Below are positions 3,769 through 15,908 of a stretch of DNA of 42,288 nt, in pieces; position 1 is the stretch's first letter; each line of letters starts with the position of its first letter. Position numbers and translations under genes: made by a program. Below the pieces are notes generated by a model, which was given only the letters and a program-made list of their open reading frames with translations, had not been told where the DNA came from and ran no database searches. Source of the stretch: Candidatus Fibrimonadaceae bacterium. Lineage in GTDB: Bacteria > Fibrobacterota > Fibrobacteria > Fibrobacterales > Fibrobacteraceae. The stretch lies in contig JAITFT010000059.1 of NCBI GenBank assembly GCA_031281155.1, positions 1 through 42,288 of the forward strand, written 5' to 3'.

Positions 3769-4869
3769 ATGAAAGTAATAGACAGGCAAATAGAGAATGT
3801 TTTGAAAAAAGTAAGAGTAAGAATTCCTGTCGTAGCTCTGCTTGGGCCCAAACAATCCGGGAAGAAAAAACTTATTCAAGAAGGTTTCACCAAAAAAATT
3901 TCCTGCATAAAAGCCAATCCTACCATTCTTTTAAGCCAATATGAATTTCCTATTATTTTAGATGAAATACACCAAGCCCCGAAACTTTTAGCTGATATAC
4001 CAAATTTAGTTGCTAAAATAGATGATACGCAGATTTTTTTAACAGGCTTGCCTTTACCATCTTTGAAAGCTAAAATCTCTGAAACTTTGGGTGAGCTTGT
4101 ACGTATTTTTCATTTGATGCCGCTTTCAATAGCAGAACTCAATGAAAATTGGAATATGAATGAATGCGAATACATATACTTTGGTTTTATGCCGGAAATT
4201 CATGAAAAAAGAATATCACCTGCGAAATTTTACGAAAATTATAAATCAACTTATTTAAAAACAGGAACGCAGCACTTTGTTAATAAAAACAATAGGCTGG
4301 AGCTCGAAAAATTTATGAAACTGCTTGCCGAAAAAGTGGGACAGTCGCCTAATTTAAATTCAATGGCAAAAGATATTGGCGTTTCTTCCACTACTTTAGC
4401 GGCTTGGTTAAATGGTCTGGAAGCAAGTGGCATAATATTTAAATTGCCGTGTTACATTGAAAATTTTGGAAAAAGGCTAATAAAAAGCCCAAAGGTATAT
4501 TTTATGGATATAGGCTTTGCTGCTTATTTTTTAGGCATTGAAAACCCAAAACAAGTTGCGACTCATTCCTTGTTTGAAAAATTATTTGAAAATATGATTA
4601 TCACAGAAGCATTGAAAGCTAGTTACAATAAAGACGAAAAACCGGAATTATATTATTTCAAAGATAATCACGGATTTGAGATAGACTTAATTTGGCGTTC
4701 TTCACACAAAATACATCTCATTGATATAAACACGACAGAAATTCACAACCCAAAACTAACAAGCTATATCCAAAAATTTTCCGAAAAAATCAAAGAACAT
4801 AGCTGTAGCATTGCAATACATGCGGGCAATTTCAAAACCCCATTCGCCTGTTCCCATAAGGCTCCTTAG
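3769..4869 (+). CDS. DUF4143-type ATPase, degenerate
   Basis: 366 aa. It has the layout of the AAA_14/DUF4143 family of bacterial ATPases. P-loop-like GPKQSGKK is at residues 26-33 and Walker B-like IILDEIHQAP at 62-71, with FLTG sensor and PLSIAEL segments after it. A winged-helix-like stretch follows (MAKDIGVSSTTLAAWLNGLEASGI) and then a C-terminal PD-(D/E)XK-like region (GFEIDLI...HLIDIN). The P-loop lacks the Ser/Thr after the conserved Lys, and the expected E-x-K of the nuclease-like site reads D-I-N, so both sites look degraded. The region between the two Walker motifs is also shorter than usual. The 3' end overlaps the convergent AAA+ gene by 38 bp. Function unknown. Confidence 0.75.
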   Translation: MKVIDRQIENVLKKVRVRIPVVALLGPKQSGKKKLIQEGFTKKISCIKANPTILLSQYEFPIILDEIHQAPKLLADIPNLVAKIDDTQIFLTGLPLPSLKAKISETLGELVRIFHLMPLSIAELNENWNMNECEYIYFGFMPEIHEKRISPAKFYENYKSTYLKTGTQHFVNKNNRLELEKFMKLLAEKVGQSPNLNSMAKDIGVSSTTLAAWLNGLEASGIIFKLPCYIENFGKRLIKSPKVYFMDIGFAAYFLGIENPKQVATHSLFEKLFENMIITEALKASYNKDEKPELYYFKDNHGFEIDLIWRSSHKIHLIDINTTEIHNPKLTSYIQKFSEKIKEHSCSIAIHAGNFKTPFACSHKAP

Positions 4870-7030
4870 CACACGCAACATCATTTAGCTCATGTGTAAC
4901 CAGCGTTGCCGAAAGCTCATTTCTTGGCAGCCACTGCAAGCGCTTGTACACGGCATAAAAATCACCAGGCGTAAGGCACTCCAAGCTGCAGAGTTTATTC
5001 CAGCTTTCCTGCTCAAATTCTGGAAAAAAATTCTGTGCCATTTTTAATATGCCGTCATTCTTTAGGTAATCAAACTTCAAATGAAAATGAAACCTGCGAT
5101 TGCTTGCCGCATCAAGCTTGCCCTGAAAATTCGTTGAGCAAACAACAAGGCACTTGCTATTCTCCAACTGAATCAAAAATTCATTCACTTGCGTAGTTTC
5201 CCAAGAATGGTTCGCGCCTCTCCGGTCAGAAATCAGGCTGTCTGCTTCGTCTATGAAGAGCAAGGTGGCTTCCTTAGACGCTTCTTCAAACGCTGTCGCT
5301 ATTTTTTTTTCAGTTTGGCCTACCCACATTGACGAGATTTTGCCATAGCTTATTTCCTTGAAAGCGAGGCCGCTTATTCTCGCCAAATGCTTTGCAAATT
5401 CCGTTTTGCCTGTTCCTGGAGGACCATATAGAAGCATTGTGCAATTGCTGTCTGTTTCTTTGTTTTTTAGGTACTCCGCATAACATTTTGCGGCATGCAG
5501 AGCATTTTCAAGACCATGAACGTTTAAAACGCTCTCATCGTATTTTGGGGCGCGACTTAGCGTGTTTTTATGGTTGCTTTCCGTGCATAAAAGCTCTAAA
5601 TGCTGTTTCAGCACAAGTTCTGCCACTTGTTCCTGTTTGCCGTTTTTTGCAAACTGCATTTCGCTAGACACCGCAAGCTCTATGCCGCCCGGATTCGCAT
5701 CGTATCTTTGAGCCAGGCTTTTTATGCGCTCAGTTGAGAAAATTTCGCTGGCTTGGTGCTTTTCAATCACGCTTTCCCAAATTTTGAGCCTCATATTTTC
5801 GTTGTTAGCCTTAAATTTCAAGCTGAAATTAAAGCGGCGCAAGCTGGAGTTTTCAACAAAAAGCAAGCTATTGCTAATCCAAATAATCGGAAGTCGCATT
5901 TCTTCCAATATTTGGTTCAAAGCACCTTTTTCAAAGCCATTCAATATCTGGTCTGCTTCGTCAATGAGCAACATTAAATTGCTTTTATTCCTTAGCGCAA
6001 TTTCGGCTATAATCAATGCTCTTGTGCGAAATTTTATTAACGCACTATTAACATTTTCTTCTGCTTCGAGTGTGTGTTTTTTTATGCCTCGCCCAACATC
6101 CAAAATTTCGCAATTTGCATTTGCGGCTATCGTGCGAGCCAGTTCTGTTTTGCCAGTGCCTTCTACTCCGTAAAGCAAAATGTGCAATGGCTTATCGTTT
6201 TTGTGCATGGATATTAAATCTGTTACATATTTTGCCTCTCTTTGGTAATCAAATTTTTCTAGAGGCAGGGTTGGCTTTTTATCGCTTGCGGCATATATAT
6301 CCATAAAATTATCGGAACCCAGGCCTTTTAAATATTTTCTTATTTCAAGAGGAATACCAAAACCTCTTTCAGTGCTATTTAGGACGTTTAAACTTGTCAG
6401 CCCACGCTCTTTGGACAGTGCCTCCAAAACAGTTTCTTCGGATACATTTATGAGCACGCCTATTGCTGGGTAGCTTATTTTATGCCTAGAGGAATTTATA
6501 GCTTTGGTTACGTTTTCAAATAGATCGTTTATGGAGGCATTATAATCGTTTAAATGCAATAAACGCAAAACTTCTTTGTTTATATTGCATAAGCCTAGCG
6601 TTTCGCATAGCAAGTGTAACCGCTTTTCAAAAACATTCGTTTTGCGAAGTTTTCCAAAGATAGCGTTTAGCAATTTTTCCTCTGGTGCGGCTTTATCATC
6701 AAATAAATATTTCAGCATTGAATTCCATTGCGTAATAGTCAAAAGTTTATGCAATGATTTCCAAGACGAAAACGATGCGCTTTCTTTTTTGTTTTCCGCT
6801 TTTTTCGGCAAAATTTTATCATAGTGCCGTTTTGCATAGTTCTTTGCCTTTTGCAAGCTAAGAAAACTTAGAAGTTCTCCATAAAAAGAATCTTCCATCC
6901 GGAACAATTTTTTATGGTTCAGTATTGTTTTTAAGTAGTGGAGTGTATAGCTATCTGGTTCAGAGCTACGAGAATCGCGTTCAAACGTCCAGCTATTGTC
7001 TTTTATGAAAAAAAATGAAAAGTCAAGCAT
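4832..7030 (-). CDS. Tandem AAA+ ATPase of unknown function
   Basis: 732 aa from ATG 7030, chosen because AGGAGA sits 7 nt upstream; the frame is open back to 7123 but that part is the duplicated leader, whose other copy contains a stop. An N-terminal helical region of about 270 residues has no motif I recognise. AAA+ module 1 has Walker A GVEGTGKT (288-295), Walker B LMLLIDEAD (352-360) and an arginine-finger-like SSLRRF. Module 2 is closer to the Vps4/SpoVK class: GPPGTGKT (536-543), LLFIDEAD (590-597) and AASNRRF. Both modules look catalytically intact. No signal peptide or membrane span, so cytoplasmic. It probably remodels or unfolds a protein partner. It lies downstream of beta-CASP and PD-(D/E)XK genes on the same strand but has its own leader. 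Confidence 0.85.
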   Translation of the reverse strand: MLDFSFFFIKDNSWTFERDSRSSEPDSYTLHYLKTILNHKKLFRMEDSFYGELLSFLSLQKAKNYAKRHYDKILPKKAENKKESASFSSWKSLHKLLTITQWNSMLKYLFDDKAAPEEKLLNAIFGKLRKTNVFEKRLHLLCETLGLCNINKEVLRLLHLNDYNASINDLFENVTKAINSSRHKISYPAIGVLINVSEETVLEALSKERGLTSLNVLNSTERGFGIPLEIRKYLKGLGSDNFMDIYAASDKKPTLPLEKFDYQREAKYVTDLISMHKNDKPLHILLYGVEGTGKTELARTIAANANCEILDVGRGIKKHTLEAEENVNSALIKFRTRALIIAEIALRNKSNLMLLIDEADQILNGFEKGALNQILEEMRLPIIWISNSLLFVENSSLRRFNFSLKFKANNENMRLKIWESVIEKHQASEIFSTERIKSLAQRYDANPGGIELAVSSEMQFAKNGKQEQVAELVLKQHLELLCTESNHKNTLSRAPKYDESVLNVHGLENALHAAKCYAEYLKNKETDSNCTMLLYGPPGTGKTEFAKHLARISGLAFKEISYGKISSMWVGQTEKKIATAFEEASKEATLLFIDEADSLISDRRGANHSWETTQVNEFLIQLENSKCLVVCSTNFQGKLDAASNRRFHFHLKFDYLKNDGILKMAQNFFPEFEQESWNKLCSLECLTPGDFYAVYKRLQWLPRNELSATLVTHELNDVACAKEPYGNRRMGF

Positions 7031-7040
7031 GATTTTATCT

Positions 7041-7165
7041 CCTGTTTTTTCATATAATACGTTTTCAAACGAGGAAATATTGGAATTTTGAAAGTTTTTG
7101 ATAAAAACCGTTAAATTATGCAAATTTTGCGGTTTTTAAAATAGAGCTTTGTACAGTTTTCAAGT
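7041..7165 (-). repeat. Duplicated leader, copy A
   Basis: About 125 bp, roughly 91% identical to 9649-9772, including an uninterrupted identical stretch of about 55 bp (7046-7100). It begins at the stop codon of the beta-CASP gene and ends at the ribosome-binding site of the AAA+ gene. It contains the palindrome CGTTTGAAAACG (7060-7071) next to TATTATAT, and an inverted repeat AACCG...CGGTT (7106-7134). Probably a shared promoter/operator or 5' UTR element. Confidence 0.85.
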
Positions 7166-8386
7166 GATAAAAGGCACTCCGTCTTCTAATATTTTAGTAT
7201 TTTTGAAATGTTTTTGGAATTCTTTTGGGTTTTCTGTGTGGATTGGTATAATGTATTTGGGTTTTATGCTAGCCACTAATTTTTTAAGGGATTCAATATC
7301 GGCATGACCGCTGGTGTGTAGGTGCTTATAAGCATAAGGTTTTAGAAAATCTATTAAATCGTCATTTTTTGCCTCATTATTTTCATCCAAGTAGCCATTC
7401 CACATTGAATAGATTATTAAATTTTTATCTGGGTACGCTTCCAACTTTGGTTTGCTGAATTTGTTGCGAATTAAACAGCAAAAACCTTTATCAAGCATCC
7501 ATTTGTTTAAATTTTTATTGTCACTATACTCGTAAATTTCCTTGAAGTTATAGAAAGTTGACATTTTGCTGTGATCTTCCTTGACAATTTCTAATATTTT
7601 CTTTTGATATTTATCGCAAATAAAAGGTCTTCTTTCTTCGAATGTTTTATTGTACGCATTGTAAAATAAAAATATTCTATCTATATTTGTGGAGGCACAT
7701 AAGATAAAAACGTATTTATGTTTTGGATTTCTAAATAATTCCATAGCTTTTTGCTGTAGTTCATATTCTGTTTGTGCTTTTTTCGTTTTTAATATGTTAG
7801 TTCCTTCGCAAATTAGGTAATCTATATTTTTTGCATAACATTTAAATACTTTGATTTTGCCTCTTGGTCCGTGTAATCGGAAGTCGCCTGTGTAGAAAAT
7901 TCTTGTGCCGTTTGCTTCTAACAAAAAGCTGTAGGCATCGAATGCTGAGTGGTCTATCATTATTGGTGTTATTTTAATGTCGCCTAAAATAAATTCTTTT
8001 CCAGGCTCTAAGTTTTTTGTTTTTGTAAAAAGTTCGATTTCTTTTTCATAATGCTTGCGTTCTTCTTCACTGATCCTTTCAGATTTTAGCAGTCTTTTTT
8101 TTAAGGTCATATTAATTTTCTTGGCTGTTTTTCCCATATAAATTGGAATACTGGGTTTTGCTTGGGTTATTCGCCCAATATGGTCGCCGTGGTAGTGAGT
8201 TAAGAGCAGCACGCTTTTTTCAGCGTTTCCGGTGGTCAGCCCATCTATATTGATTTTTGAAACGGATTTTTCTTTGTCTTTGGTTAAATCGGCTCCAAGG
8301 TCAATAAATACTCTTGCCTTTTCGGTTGAAATTTCCGTTACGCATCCGCCAATTTGGTTAGCGCCTCTATGGATTGTTATTTGCAT
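7160..8386 (-). CDS. Beta-CASP metallo-beta-lactamase-fold hydrolase (RNase J-like)
   Basis: 408 aa. The zinc site THYHGDH (H64, H66, D68, H69) is intact. A second metal His/Asp is seen in GDFRLHGP. The C-terminus has HTSGHADIESLKKLV and YIIPIHTENP, the B/C motifs typical of beta-CASP nucleases such as RNase J. It is shorter than RNase J (about 550 aa), lacking that enzyme's C-terminal domain. Known members cut RNA or, less often, DNA. Its start overlaps the end of the PD-(D/E)XK gene by 10 bp, with no Shine-Dalgarno, so translation is likely coupled. The pairing of two nuclease folds suggests joint action on nucleic acid, but that is inference. Confidence 0.8.
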   Translation of the reverse strand: MQITIHRGANQIGGCVTEISTEKARVFIDLGADLTKDKEKSVSKINIDGLTTGNAEKSVLLLTHYHGDHIGRITQAKPSIPIYMGKTAKKINMTLKKRLLKSERISEEERKHYEKEIELFTKTKNLEPGKEFILGDIKITPIMIDHSAFDAYSFLLEANGTRIFYTGDFRLHGPRGKIKVFKCYAKNIDYLICEGTNILKTKKAQTEYELQQKAMELFRNPKHKYVFILCASTNIDRIFLFYNAYNKTFEERRPFICDKYQKKILEIVKEDHSKMSTFYNFKEIYEYSDNKNLNKWMLDKGFCCLIRNKFSKPKLEAYPDKNLIIYSMWNGYLDENNEAKNDDLIDFLKPYAYKHLHTSGHADIESLKKLVASIKPKYIIPIHTENPKEFQKHFKNTKILEDGVPFIT

Positions 8387-9090
8387 TTTTTGTTCAGATA
8401 ATTTTCAAATTTATCTTGTAACTCAGGTTCTAGCCATTTTAAATCTACTTTTAATACCTCCATTAACTCGTTAGTTTTCGGATATTTTAGGTTTTTATAA
8501 CTATTAGAAATATTGCTATCTTTAAATAGTAAAATAGTCGGTATTATATTAGGCTTTTTAGCTTCTAAACCGAAGTCTGTGCATAGTTCGTCTTGATTTA
8601 CTTGTCTAGAATATGTGTAAATTTCGAGTATACACCTTAGCAAAGTTTCTTTACTTTTACTATTTTTAAGTTCCACAAGCCTCAACTCATTCCTAGAATC
8701 TTGATATGTTAAGAGATCTATTCTTCCAGTTTCCTTATCTTTAATAGGGATTTGATAATCTATAACTTTTCCCAAGTCAGCATCTTCGTAAGAAGACAGA
8801 TGCATATATATAGCTAACTTTTCTTCTTCTCTATTCGAATCGCAGTTAAGCTTAGGGCTCTCATGTGAAGAAAGTTTATATCTCTCACCATTTCGTTTTT
8901 TTCGTATTAATGGTTTTATACTTTTTAAAAGTTCTAAATTTTCTAGTAGCCATTTTGATATTATTTCAGAAAATGATTCTTTAGAGCCTCCAGGACCAGT
9001 CCAGTTTACAATGTCGTTTCTATAAAATTCGCTTATTGATTCTTCATTTACTCCTTCTAGGACTTTTTTTATTTCTAAAAATTTACTCAT
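8377..9090 (-). CDS. PD-(D/E)XK nuclease-like protein
   Basis: 237 aa, not a family I can name. Residues 121-145 read TGRIDLL...RLVELKNSK, giving D125, E140-x-K142, the core of a PD-(D/E)XK nuclease. The preceding helical half (1-90) is charged and lacks motifs. Start ATG 9090 has GAGAGG 8 nt upstream and a TATATT core about 32 nt upstream (9123-9128). It forms a two-gene unit with the beta-CASP protein (10-bp overlap). It could be a restriction or defence nuclease or a degenerate relative; the active residues appear present. Confidence 0.65.
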   Translation of the reverse strand: MSKFLEIKKVLEGVNEESISEFYRNDIVNWTGPGGSKESFSEIISKWLLENLELLKSIKPLIRKKRNGERYKLSSHESPKLNCDSNREEEKLAIYMHLSSYEDADLGKVIDYQIPIKDKETGRIDLLTYQDSRNELRLVELKNSKSKETLLRCILEIYTYSRQVNQDELCTDFGLEAKKPNIIPTILLFKDSNISNSYKNLKYPKTNELMEVLKVDLKWLEPELQDKFENYLNKKCK

Positions 9091-9122
9091 CTTTTACCTC
9101 TCAAATTAATGTGTTAACGCCA

Positions 9123-9128
9123 AATATA
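9123..9128 (-). promoter_or_regulatory. Possible -10 of the PD-(D/E)XK/beta-CASP unit
   Basis: TATATTTG on the minus strand, 32 nt before ATG 9090, with a GAGAGG ribosome-binding site in between. Confidence 0.4.
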
Positions 9129-9199
9129 CAAAAATAAGCACTACTTAACCCAAACTTTTTGCGCTTTTTTCATTTTTTATCTCTCCTTCGCCATACAAG

Positions 9200-9637
9200 T
9201 TACAGATACGGGGCTAAAATAAAATTTTGTTTTAGCCAAATAGCAGCAAAAGTATTCATAATAACTTCGCATTTACTCTCGCCTTGCTCCATTTCAAAAT
9301 TCAGGCTCTTTGCCATTTCCAAAACACTAACAGTTATAGGATTTAAGCCACCGCAACATAAGGCAGTAGCAGTTGCTAAACCAAAGTTATTTGAAAAAAC
9401 AAGAAAGACATTCACGTCAGAAATGAAATTCCAAAAAATTTCTGCAGCATCAGGGCCAAAATCACAAAATAATTCCATTGCTTCACAAACTCCATCAACT
9501 TTCTTTTCAGATTTAATTGCTAATTGCAATTCATCAAGTTTTTTCGGCAAACCCTTTTCAAATTTAAATGAGATTGCTCTGAGCTTTACTTCGCCATCAC
9601 CGACACTCTCCATATCTAAAGCTAAGAATTTTGTCAT
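9200..9637 (-). CDS. Small acidic protein of unknown function
   Basis: 145 aa from ATG 9637 (MTKFLALDMESV). The ATG at 9643 is only 2 nt from AGGAGA, so the second start, 8 nt away, is preferred. Net acidic and probably soluble, with a Cys-Cys-Gly-Gly stretch (ALCCGGLN); no domain recognised. It is preceded by copy B of the duplicated leader, so it may be co-regulated with the AAA+ ATPase. It lies 109 bp upstream of the PD-(D/E)XK gene on the same strand. Confidence 0.7.
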   Translation of the reverse strand: MTKFLALDMESVGDGEVKLRAISFKFEKGLPKKLDELQLAIKSEKKVDGVCEAMELFCDFGPDAAEIFWNFISDVNVFLVFSNNFGLATATALCCGGLNPITVSVLEMAKSLNFEMEQGESKCEVIMNTFAAIWLKQNFILAPYL

Positions 9638-9648
9638 AATCATTGTCT

Positions 9649-9772
9649 CCTATTTTTCATATAATACGTTTTCAAACGAGGAAATATTGGAATTTTGAAA
9701 GTTTTTGCTAAAAACCGCTAAATTTTGCAAATTTTGCGGTTTGTGAAATAGAGTTTCGTGCATTTTTCAAGT
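9649..9772 (-). repeat. Duplicated leader, copy B
   Basis: Second copy of the 125-bp leader (see 7041-7165). Palindrome CGTTTGAAAACG at 9667-9678; inverted repeat AACCGC...GCGGTT at 9713-9741, complete here but with one broken pair in copy A. A 38-codon frame (ATG to TAG) crosses it, but the other copy has a stop in that frame and the differences show no coding bias, so I treat it as noncoding. Confidence 0.85.
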
Positions 9773-9851
9773 TTAAAAATAGACTTCAAGAGGTGATATG
9801 CCAGAGAAGCTTTGCTATTGAGCTGAGATGATCTTATCGAAGGTAGTGTAT

Positions 9852-13532: not shown

Positions 13533-15908
13533 ATGAAAAAGACTGTTTTTATATTCTCGCTCCTTTTTGCGGCATTTTTATATGCCGCTCCGCTGTATGC
13601 CGCACCACAGAAAGTTGAACGTTTTTTGCTGGTTGCCGGCGCGAATAACGGTGGCCCGAACAAGGTTTTGCTTCGCTATGCAGAAAGCGATGCCAACTCT
13701 TTCGCAGATGTTATGTCTCAAATGGGAGGCATAGAAAAAAACAATGTTTTGCGGGTTTTTAACCCAAGCACTGCATCTATGCAGAACGGTTTTTCTGAAA
13801 TGGAAAGGCGCTTGCAAAGAAATCCCGGGGCCCGCAGAGAGGTGATTGTATATTATAGCGGCCACGCAGATGAACAAGGTTTAAGGCTTGGCCGTGATAT
13901 TTATAGCTGGGCGGATTTTCGCCAAAGCGTTCACAGCTTGAATGCCGATGTCAAAGTCGCTGTAATTGATGCCTGCGGCTCAGGTGCCATAACCAGAACA
14001 AAGGGCGGCGTTTCAAGGCCGGCTTTTTTGCAAGATGTCAGCAGCGAAATGAAGGGCTACGCATTCTTAACCAGCTCCAATGAAAACGAGGTGAGCCAGG
14101 AAAGCGATCGGCTAAAGGGTAGCTTTTTCACTCACGCTTTGGTGAACGGCCTGCGTGGAGCCGCAGATATGACCGGAGACGGCAAAGTAACTCTAAACGA
14201 AGCATATCAATTTGCATTCAACGAAACAATGCGGCAAACCCAGTCCACAAGCGGCGGAGTGCAGCACCCAAGCCGCGATATGAACCTCGCTGGCACCGGC
14301 GATGTTGTTATGACCGATTTGCGGCAAGTTTCCGCAAGCCTGGTTTTGGAAAAAGATATGGAAGGGAGATTTTTTATCAGAGACGACAAGGGAAATTTGG
14401 TTGCAGAACTTCATAAAATCGTCGGCAGACCTTTGGAGCTAGGTTTACCTTCAGGGAAATATTCCGTGCAAATGGAGGCTCCAAGCCGTCTGTGGAGGGC
14501 CGGCGATTTTGAGCTTAAAAACGGCACAAAACACATTCTTTCAATGAACAATATGAGAAGCATAGATAGAGAAGTAGCCGTAGCTCGCGGCGATGCAGAT
14601 CCTGCGCTTATGAACGGCTTGGACTCCGCTCGCAAGGCTCCATTTACTTTTAATCCTTTTGGGTATAGCAGCGAACCGGCAAACGGCGTGCAATTGGGAT
14701 TACTAACACTTTCAAAAAGAGCTTTTGTAGGAACGCAAATATCCCTTTTTGGAAATATAGCGGCAGACGATATGGCAGGCAGCCAGCTTACGACACTTGG
14801 CAATGTTGCTGTTAAAGATTTTCACGGGATTCAAGGCTCGGCTTTGTTTAATTATGCAAGAGATTTTAGCGGACTGCAAGCTGCTCCCTTTAATTTTGCG
14901 ATAGATGGCAAAGGTTTGCAAGCCGGTGTAATAAATGTTTATGCGCATAATTTAGAAGGCGCACAGGCCTCTGCAATTAATATTGGAGGCAAGGTGACTT
15001 ATGGGCAAGGCGGTGCGATAAATATAGTGGGCAGCACGGAATATGGCCAAGGCGGTGCTATAAATGTAGCAGGCAATGCCGGCAAGATGCAGGGTGGCGC
15101 AATAAACTTAGCTGGTAGCACGGAATATGGCCAAGGCGGCGCTATAAATGTAGCAGGCAACGCCGGCAAGGTGCAGGGTGGCGCAATAAACTTAGCTGGC
15201 AGCACGGAATATGCTCAGGGTGGCGTTATAAATGTTGCTGGGAATGCTGGCCTTATTCAAGGCGGTGTTATAAATGTAGCAGGAAAGGTTGAAACATTGC
15301 AAGGCGGCGTTATAAATGTTGGCGGCCATGTTGGCAGGCAAGTAGGCGTTATAAATATTGCGGCGAAAAGCGAGCACACTCCTATAGGCTTAATAAATAT
15401 TATTGGCAATGGCATTATAGACGCTACATTCTACGCAGATGAAACAGGCAGAGCGGGCACCGTTTTACACATGGGAACTCCTTATCTTTACACGCTTTTT
15501 GAATATACCTTGAAACCAACGCTTAGCGGTGGCTGGAGCGATGCTTTTCCGCAAAGCTGGGGCTTGGGGCTTGGAACTCGTTTTGGAATGTGGAGTAATT
15601 TCTTTAGCCTCGATTACGCCTTCTTAAATACTCACGAGAAAAATCCAAAAAGCTTTGGAATGATGAATGTCAGCAGAAAAGACCCAAGCAACTATTTGCA
15701 TAAAGCTCGCTTTGGCGCTGCATACAAGTTTTTGCCAGGCCTTGCTCTAACAAGCGGCATTACACTAAACGCTCTTTCGGAAGGCTATGGGGACGACTTG
15801 TACGTTGAGCCCCGCGGCGGTTATCACTGGCACTGGACTTTTGGCGAAAAACATAAGGTTCGTTTGTGGCCGGGCTTATACGCTGGCTTAACGGTTGGGA
15901 AGTTTTAG
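13533..15908 (+). CDS. Exported caspase-like protein with repeat solenoid
   Basis: 791 aa. Signal peptide 1-24 (cleavage near LYA-AP). A C14 caspase-like domain spans about 27-260. The catalytic dyad is His111 (IVYYSGHADEQG) and Cys148 (VIDACGSGA), both present. DMTGDGKVTLNEAY (212-225) looks like a calcium-binding loop. A beta domain follows (265-345). About 16 repeats of 14-15 residues cover 385-627, the central ones matching QGG(A/V)IN(V/L)AG plus five variable residues; this predicts a beta-solenoid. Similar G-x-Q-x-G-x-I/V-N repeats occur, from memory, in surface proteins of Leptospira and Bacteroidota. The last 150 residues are aromatic-rich beta strands ending in Phe, as in outer-membrane barrels. 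It is likely a surface or periplasmic protease; target unknown. It stands alone on its strand. Confidence 0.88.
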   Translation: MKKTVFIFSLLFAAFLYAAPLYAAPQKVERFLLVAGANNGGPNKVLLRYAESDANSFADVMSQMGGIEKNNVLRVFNPSTASMQNGFSEMERRLQRNPGARREVIVYYSGHADEQGLRLGRDIYSWADFRQSVHSLNADVKVAVIDACGSGAITRTKGGVSRPAFLQDVSSEMKGYAFLTSSNENEVSQESDRLKGSFFTHALVNGLRGAADMTGDGKVTLNEAYQFAFNETMRQTQSTSGGVQHPSRDMNLAGTGDVVMTDLRQVSASLVLEKDMEGRFFIRDDKGNLVAELHKIVGRPLELGLPSGKYSVQMEAPSRLWRAGDFELKNGTKHILSMNNMRSIDREVAVARGDADPALMNGLDSARKAPFTFNPFGYSSEPANGVQLGLLTLSKRAFVGTQISLFGNIAADDMAGSQLTTLGNVAVKDFHGIQGSALFNYARDFSGLQAAPFNFAIDGKGLQAGVINVYAHNLEGAQASAINIGGKVTYGQGGAINIVGSTEYGQGGAINVAGNAGKMQGGAINLAGSTEYGQGGAINVAGNAGKVQGGAINLAGSTEYAQGGVINVAGNAGLIQGGVINVAGKVETLQGGVINVGGHVGRQVGVINIAAKSEHTPIGLINIIGNGIIDATFYADETGRAGTVLHMGTPYLYTLFEYTLKPTLSGGWSDAFPQSWGLGLGTRFGMWSNFFSLDYAFLNTHEKNPKSFGMMNVSRKDPSNYLHKARFGAAYKFLPGLALTSGITLNALSEGYGDDLYVEPRGGYHWHWTFGEKHKVRLWPGLYAGLTVGKF
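14993..15352 (+). repeat. Tandem 42-bp repeats inside the caspase-like gene
   Basis: Eight to nine 42-bp units encode the QGGAIN solenoid rungs. Alternate units are most alike, giving a higher-order 84-bp period; the two 84-bp copies around 15033-15200 are almost identical in DNA, which shows recent duplication or gene conversion. Confidence 0.85.

Follow-up and report, generated by a model that had tools for sequence, protein, structure and literature searches.

A gene for a predicted beta-CASP nuclease and a neighbouring gene for a predicted PD-(D/E)XK nuclease of a Candidatus Fibrimonadaceae bacterium form, as judged by sequence comparison, a conserved but scattered two-gene unit that is present in several bacterial phyla and on plasmids. 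We consider it very probable that the two nucleases are a functional unit. The relatives and the Fibrobacter-type serine-rich lipoproteins of this metagenome-type assembly point to the Fibrobacteraceae. The pair lies in the window, the whole stretch of DNA that we analysed (42,288 nucleotides, contig JAITFT010000059.1), within the following run of features:

4832-7030, minus strand: tandem AAA+ ATPase, 732 aa, with Pfam AAA in two stretches
7046-7172, minus strand: leader copy 2, 5' of the ATPase gene and overlapping the 3' end of the beta-CASP gene; near-palindrome at 7110-7130 with 2 mismatches
7160-8386, minus strand: predicted beta-CASP metallo-beta-lactamase nuclease, 408 aa, gene 2 of the pair; Pfam Lactamase_B_2 and RMMBL, invariant motifs
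8377-9090, minus strand: predicted PD-(D/E)XK nuclease, 237 aa, gene 1 of the pair; core invariant in 12 counterparts, subfamily A profile
9200-9643, minus strand: small acidic protein of 147 aa, probably an accessory to the nuclease pair; sole relative found in G015
9653-9779, minus strand: leader of the small-gene/nuclease operon; near-palindrome at 9717-9737, exact; 91% identical to 7046-7172

The first-pass annotation had described four same-strand genes, a 10-bp overlap of the two nuclease-like genes and a leader carried by both the ATPase and the small gene. All four genes are present, the overlap is correct (8377-8386), and the two leader copies are 127 bp long and alike beyond chance. 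The likely start of the ATPase is the ATG at 7030, which gives 732 aa, has ggag upstream and yields the MLDF(S) start common to the orthologues. The TTG at 7123, which falls inside the leader, is not the likely start. On the plus strand, the gene at 3769-4869 encodes an AAA_14/DUF4143 protein that matches the PADLOC candidate PDC-S01 (E 3e-51); it is convergent with the ATPase gene and overlaps its end by about 38 bp. Another plus-strand gene (13533-15908) encodes a long protein that resembles a caspase in its N-terminal domain (by eye, from an HSG..DACGSG pattern) and has about a dozen GGAINxAG-type repeats.

Relatives of the beta-CASP protein were drawn from the family genomes, plasmids, Clostridia MAGs, a 398-genome sample (the phylum of one of the Clostridia MAG relatives) and viral contigs. 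Removal of near-duplicates left 28 distinct loci, which span Fibrobacterota, Clostridia MAGs, Bacteroidota and proteobacterial plasmids, and viral contigs. A PD-(D/E)XK neighbour of subfamily A, B, B2 or B3 was recognised by profile at 20 of the 28, and at two further loci (L083 and L084) by the same residue pattern. The neighbourhood conservation that the first-pass annotation proposed to look for was thus found for the two nuclease genes. The L083 and L084 partners were not recovered with each other left out; a profile built from the two together matches subfamily A (E 7e-6), and the L084 partner lies on the opposite strand. Most pairs overlap or sit within tens of bp, with a gap of about 0.6 kb at L057 and one gene in between at L079. 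No partner was detectable at L047, L053 and L095, nor at L089 (broken) and L049 (cut by the contig end), and L080 was counted in neither group.

The partner subfamilies were first built from these neighbours, and the leave-one-out profiles are the non-circular part of the test. They recovered the training members with E values from 1e-13 to 1e-59, each as the best ORF in its own locus; L064, which is the same locus as L094, was absent from this run. The window PD-(D/E)XK protein was found by the leave-one-out subfamily A profile with an E value of 1.2e-42. L058 and L062 were outside the training set, yet they gave strong profile matches. In the reciprocal direction, we searched 72,556 plasmid records with two partners of subfamily B, the commonest partner type, and a beta-CASP gene adjoined the match in all seven records obtained. 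The same plasmid search with one subfamily-A partner gave no match, and the Butyrivibrio locus (L054) shows that it misses distant members. Four of the 61 family genomes have the beta-CASP family, as do 7 of the 398 genomes of the second phylum and 11 plasmid records, and one of 50,697 phage records gave a weak match. The pair has a sporadic spread and not the housekeeping distribution that had been named as speaking against the proposal.

We examined the active sites of both proteins. D29, H64/H66/D68/H69, H146, D168, E194, H361 and H383 are invariant in 14 beta-CASP relatives, and the window protein has the MBL motifs 1-4 and the motifs A, B and C of the beta-CASP superfamily, in agreement with the published motif scheme (PMC3095777). 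In that scheme, histidine at motif C is found in RNA-processing members and valine in DNA-processing members (PMC3095777). The window protein has the histidine, and the invariant H383 predicts, but does not prove, that RNA is the substrate. The alignment places the protein among nucleases of RNase J/CPSF-73 type, and its metal site is complete. Its best match among solved structures is Enterococcus faecalis EF2904 (PDB 2az4, E 1.7e-38), which has the MBL, beta-CASP and RMMBL architecture in common with it.

RNase J shares the same three-domain architecture and the motifs 1-4, A, B and C, whereas the window protein has about 400 aa, is without the RNase J C-terminal part and is paired with a PD-(D/E)XK protein. 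A housekeeping RNase J was rejected, with a TIGR00649 score of 78.9 bits against the curated cut-off of 400 and a position in a separate clade. In the maximum-likelihood tree, the module beta-CASPs stand apart from RNase J (support 100/100, branch 4.24), which is represented there by two proteins only, from the same Clostridia genomes.

In the PD-(D/E)XK protein, E89, D111, D125 and E140-x-K142 are invariant across 12 aligned counterparts. The protein has the acidic residue followed by the E-x-K core and the upstream glutamate of this superfamily, and in the alignment its catalytic core is complete. Since the catalytic residues of both families are invariant, both window nucleases are predicted to be active. 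Neither the 237-aa PD-(D/E)XK protein nor the small protein matched Pfam, NCBIfam or PADLOC; a lone NCBIfam line at E 0.1 in this search was taken as chance. A scan of the genome contigs with the PD-(D/E)XK protein gave nothing, a scan of the viral contigs with subfamily A gave only the contig already known, and the profile had no credible match among solved structures. AlphaFold2 reached a mean pLDDT of 35 for the PD-(D/E)XK protein, from an alignment of two sequences, and the prediction for the small protein reached 44, so that the quality of both models was below what could be used.

The partner subfamily does not follow the beta-CASP tree. Subfamily A is the partner type of the window protein and also that at L088, L090 and L091. 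The beta-CASPs of L061 and L063 share 78% identity, but the alignment of their partners covers 42 aa only. B, B2 and B3 make up one group of related subfamilies and A and C another, and A and B are linked weakly with their motifs in register. As read from these alignments, the partner switches subfamily between close relatives and stays a PD-(D/E)XK protein.

The small acidic protein (pI 4.6) probably belongs with the nuclease pair, on the strength of two genomes only. The one relative that we found is in G015 and is 44-48% identical. Its gene overlaps the next gene by 4 bp, and this next gene encodes a 308-aa protein that matches the independently trained B2 PD-(D/E)XK profile (E 5e-7). The small gene thus precedes a PD-(D/E)XK gene in both the window and G015. 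G015 also has the closest homologue of the window beta-CASP protein; its gene follows a DUF4116 gene and is located on a separate contig.

The first-pass annotation had combined all four genes into one system. The nuclease pair stands and the small protein probably belongs to it, but the ATPase was rejected as a subunit because it has no conserved association with the pair. It matches Pfam AAA twice (E 7e-38), and about 36 of the 61 family genomes have a relative of it (E < 1e-50). No pair member lies near the 17 other ATPase loci that we searched, and no ATPase of this kind accompanies the pair loci of other phyla. Neither the operon of the small and PD-(D/E)XK genes nor that of the DUF4116 and beta-CASP genes shares a contig with the ATPase gene in G015. 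By these comparisons the ATPase gene is a separate, family-wide gene that does not belong to the conserved unit. A system of four genes, with the ATPase as the motor or remodeller of the nucleases, would fit the leader common to the ATPase and small genes in the window, the palindrome before the ATPase gene and the two pair-related operons of G015, and the WYL regulator genes that follow the ATPases of several relatives. We consider it quite unlikely in view of the separate loci, and the common operator is found in two genomes only, with one G015 copy before an integrase gene.

A common regulation of the ATPase and the pair is possible and can fairly be proposed, because the palindrome-bearing leader is common to the ATPase gene, the small gene and the pair-related genes of G015. 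In G015 the palindrome is kept before the orthologous ATPase gene, the small gene/PD-(D/E)XK operon and the DUF4116/beta-CASP operon. The leader is not a genome-wide repeat, as only two copies were found in the genome (219 contigs), and it may be a repeat of mobile-element origin. A further G015 copy of the palindrome, with one mismatch, is located at L113 1501-1522 (G015:C255), about 80 bp before a tyrosine-recombinase-like (integrase) gene; it adjoins a tRNA-like stretch without an ARAGORN call. Promoter elements seen by eye beside the palindromes were not supported by a sigma-70 scan of the region, which gave 12 sites against 16 expected by chance. Orthologous ATPases at L005, L036 and L037 have a different palindrome just upstream, approximately GCGACA-N5-TGTCGC (by eye). 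A WYL-domain regulator gene is repeatedly found near the tandem ATPase gene (L005, L035, L036, L037 and L044), in some cases directly downstream. At L038 (G024), the ATPase gene is embedded in an array of genes with DUF4116 repeats or the 'major paralogous domain'; the genus has many such arrays.

The surroundings of the pair loci may be enriched in defence genes and are suggestive of defence. Genes of the GmrSD type were seen near L053 and L094 and a restriction gene of the Eco57I type near L056; WYL or HTH regulators lie near L053, L054, L080, L082, L090 and L094. At four proteobacterial loci (L056, L057, L058 and L095), the beta-CASP gene adjoins a gene for a small protein (about 125-150 aa) in which the motif GIFWxV recurs; the one such protein tested had no Pfam match. 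In Prevotella, a metallophosphoesterase gene (L053 6455-7024) lies 3' of the beta-CASP gene with a 4-bp overlap, and its product matches the PADLOC candidate PDC-S10 (E 1e-68). In Cereibacter, a metallophosphoesterase gene (L059 6203-6859) also adjoins the beta-CASP gene.

We compared the genes with known defence systems. None of the window beta-CASP, PD-(D/E)XK and small proteins matched a profile of PADLOC-DB 2.0.0, which dates from 2023, up to an E value of 1, and the related beta-CASPs gave no match or E 0.008. Cas14 of type VII CRISPR-Cas (PMC12669027) is likewise a beta-CASP nuclease in immunity, with a weaker sequence match, but the ORF lists contain no Cas5 or Cas7 genes near the pair and the 408-aa window protein is without the Cas10-like C-terminal domain. 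The Trypsin-MBL pairs (HamM and kin, PMC12799240) also join an MBL-fold nuclease to a second enzyme in phage defence; theirs are a ComEC-like MBL nuclease and a protease, whereas the window pair consists of a beta-CASP and a PD-(D/E)XK nuclease and has no protease. The ATPase matches the IetA models of IetAS over the AAA core (E 3e-35), but what is matched there is a generic AAA domain. Membership in IetAS was rejected, with 112.5 bits against a cut-off of 510 and no subtilisin-like IetS protease among the neighbouring genes. The earlier statement that no described system has this set holds for the pair, which is unnamed in PADLOC, Pfam and the searchable open literature. The pair is apparently undescribed, as judged from a literature search that covered mainly open papers.

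Defence is the best-supported reading of the pair, as suggested by its context. That the pair is a mobile anti-phage or anti-plasmid defence unit, with the roles of the partners suggested by context, seems to us a real possibility, at slightly less than an even chance. A mobile unit for RNA processing, repair or maintenance, for example in plasmid stabilisation or of a toxin-antitoxin-like kind, would agree with the RNase-type beta-CASP family, the presence of the pair on plasmids and the metallophosphoesterase genes after the beta-CASP gene in Prevotella and Cereibacter. We regard it as rather unlikely, since the turnover of the partner and the restriction-gene neighbours fit a conflict better and the loci have no antitoxin-like gene in common. 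It is highly improbable that unrelated genes have become adjacent by chance in a defence-rich region. In favour of chance, our search of 166 further genomes of the phylum gave no relative of the window PD-(D/E)XK gene, but the pairing recurs in several phyla and in both search directions, has leave-one-out support, and is missing at two RNase J loci, where no PD-(D/E)XK partner match was found.

In a defence unit, the two nucleases would act together. The variable PD-(D/E)XK protein would recognise and cut foreign DNA, or sense it, and the constant beta-CASP enzyme would degrade RNA, either that of the invader or, in an abortive response, that of the cell itself. In this genus, the small acidic protein, whose gene is the first of the operon, may restrain or adapt the pair, and the palindromic operator that the ATPase gene also has may switch all the genes on together. 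More doubtful is a hitherto undescribed class of immune modules in which a constant beta-CASP RNase is combined with interchangeable PD-(D/E)XK partners that set the recognition, so that an RNA-cutting enzyme is redirected by a swap of its DNA-nuclease partner. If the defence reading is true, a widespread unnamed nuclease pair would join the candidates for bacterial immunity. The constant beta-CASP and the changing PD-(D/E)XK protein would suggest how such a system alters its target, and an RNase J-like enzyme would be placed outside housekeeping RNA decay.
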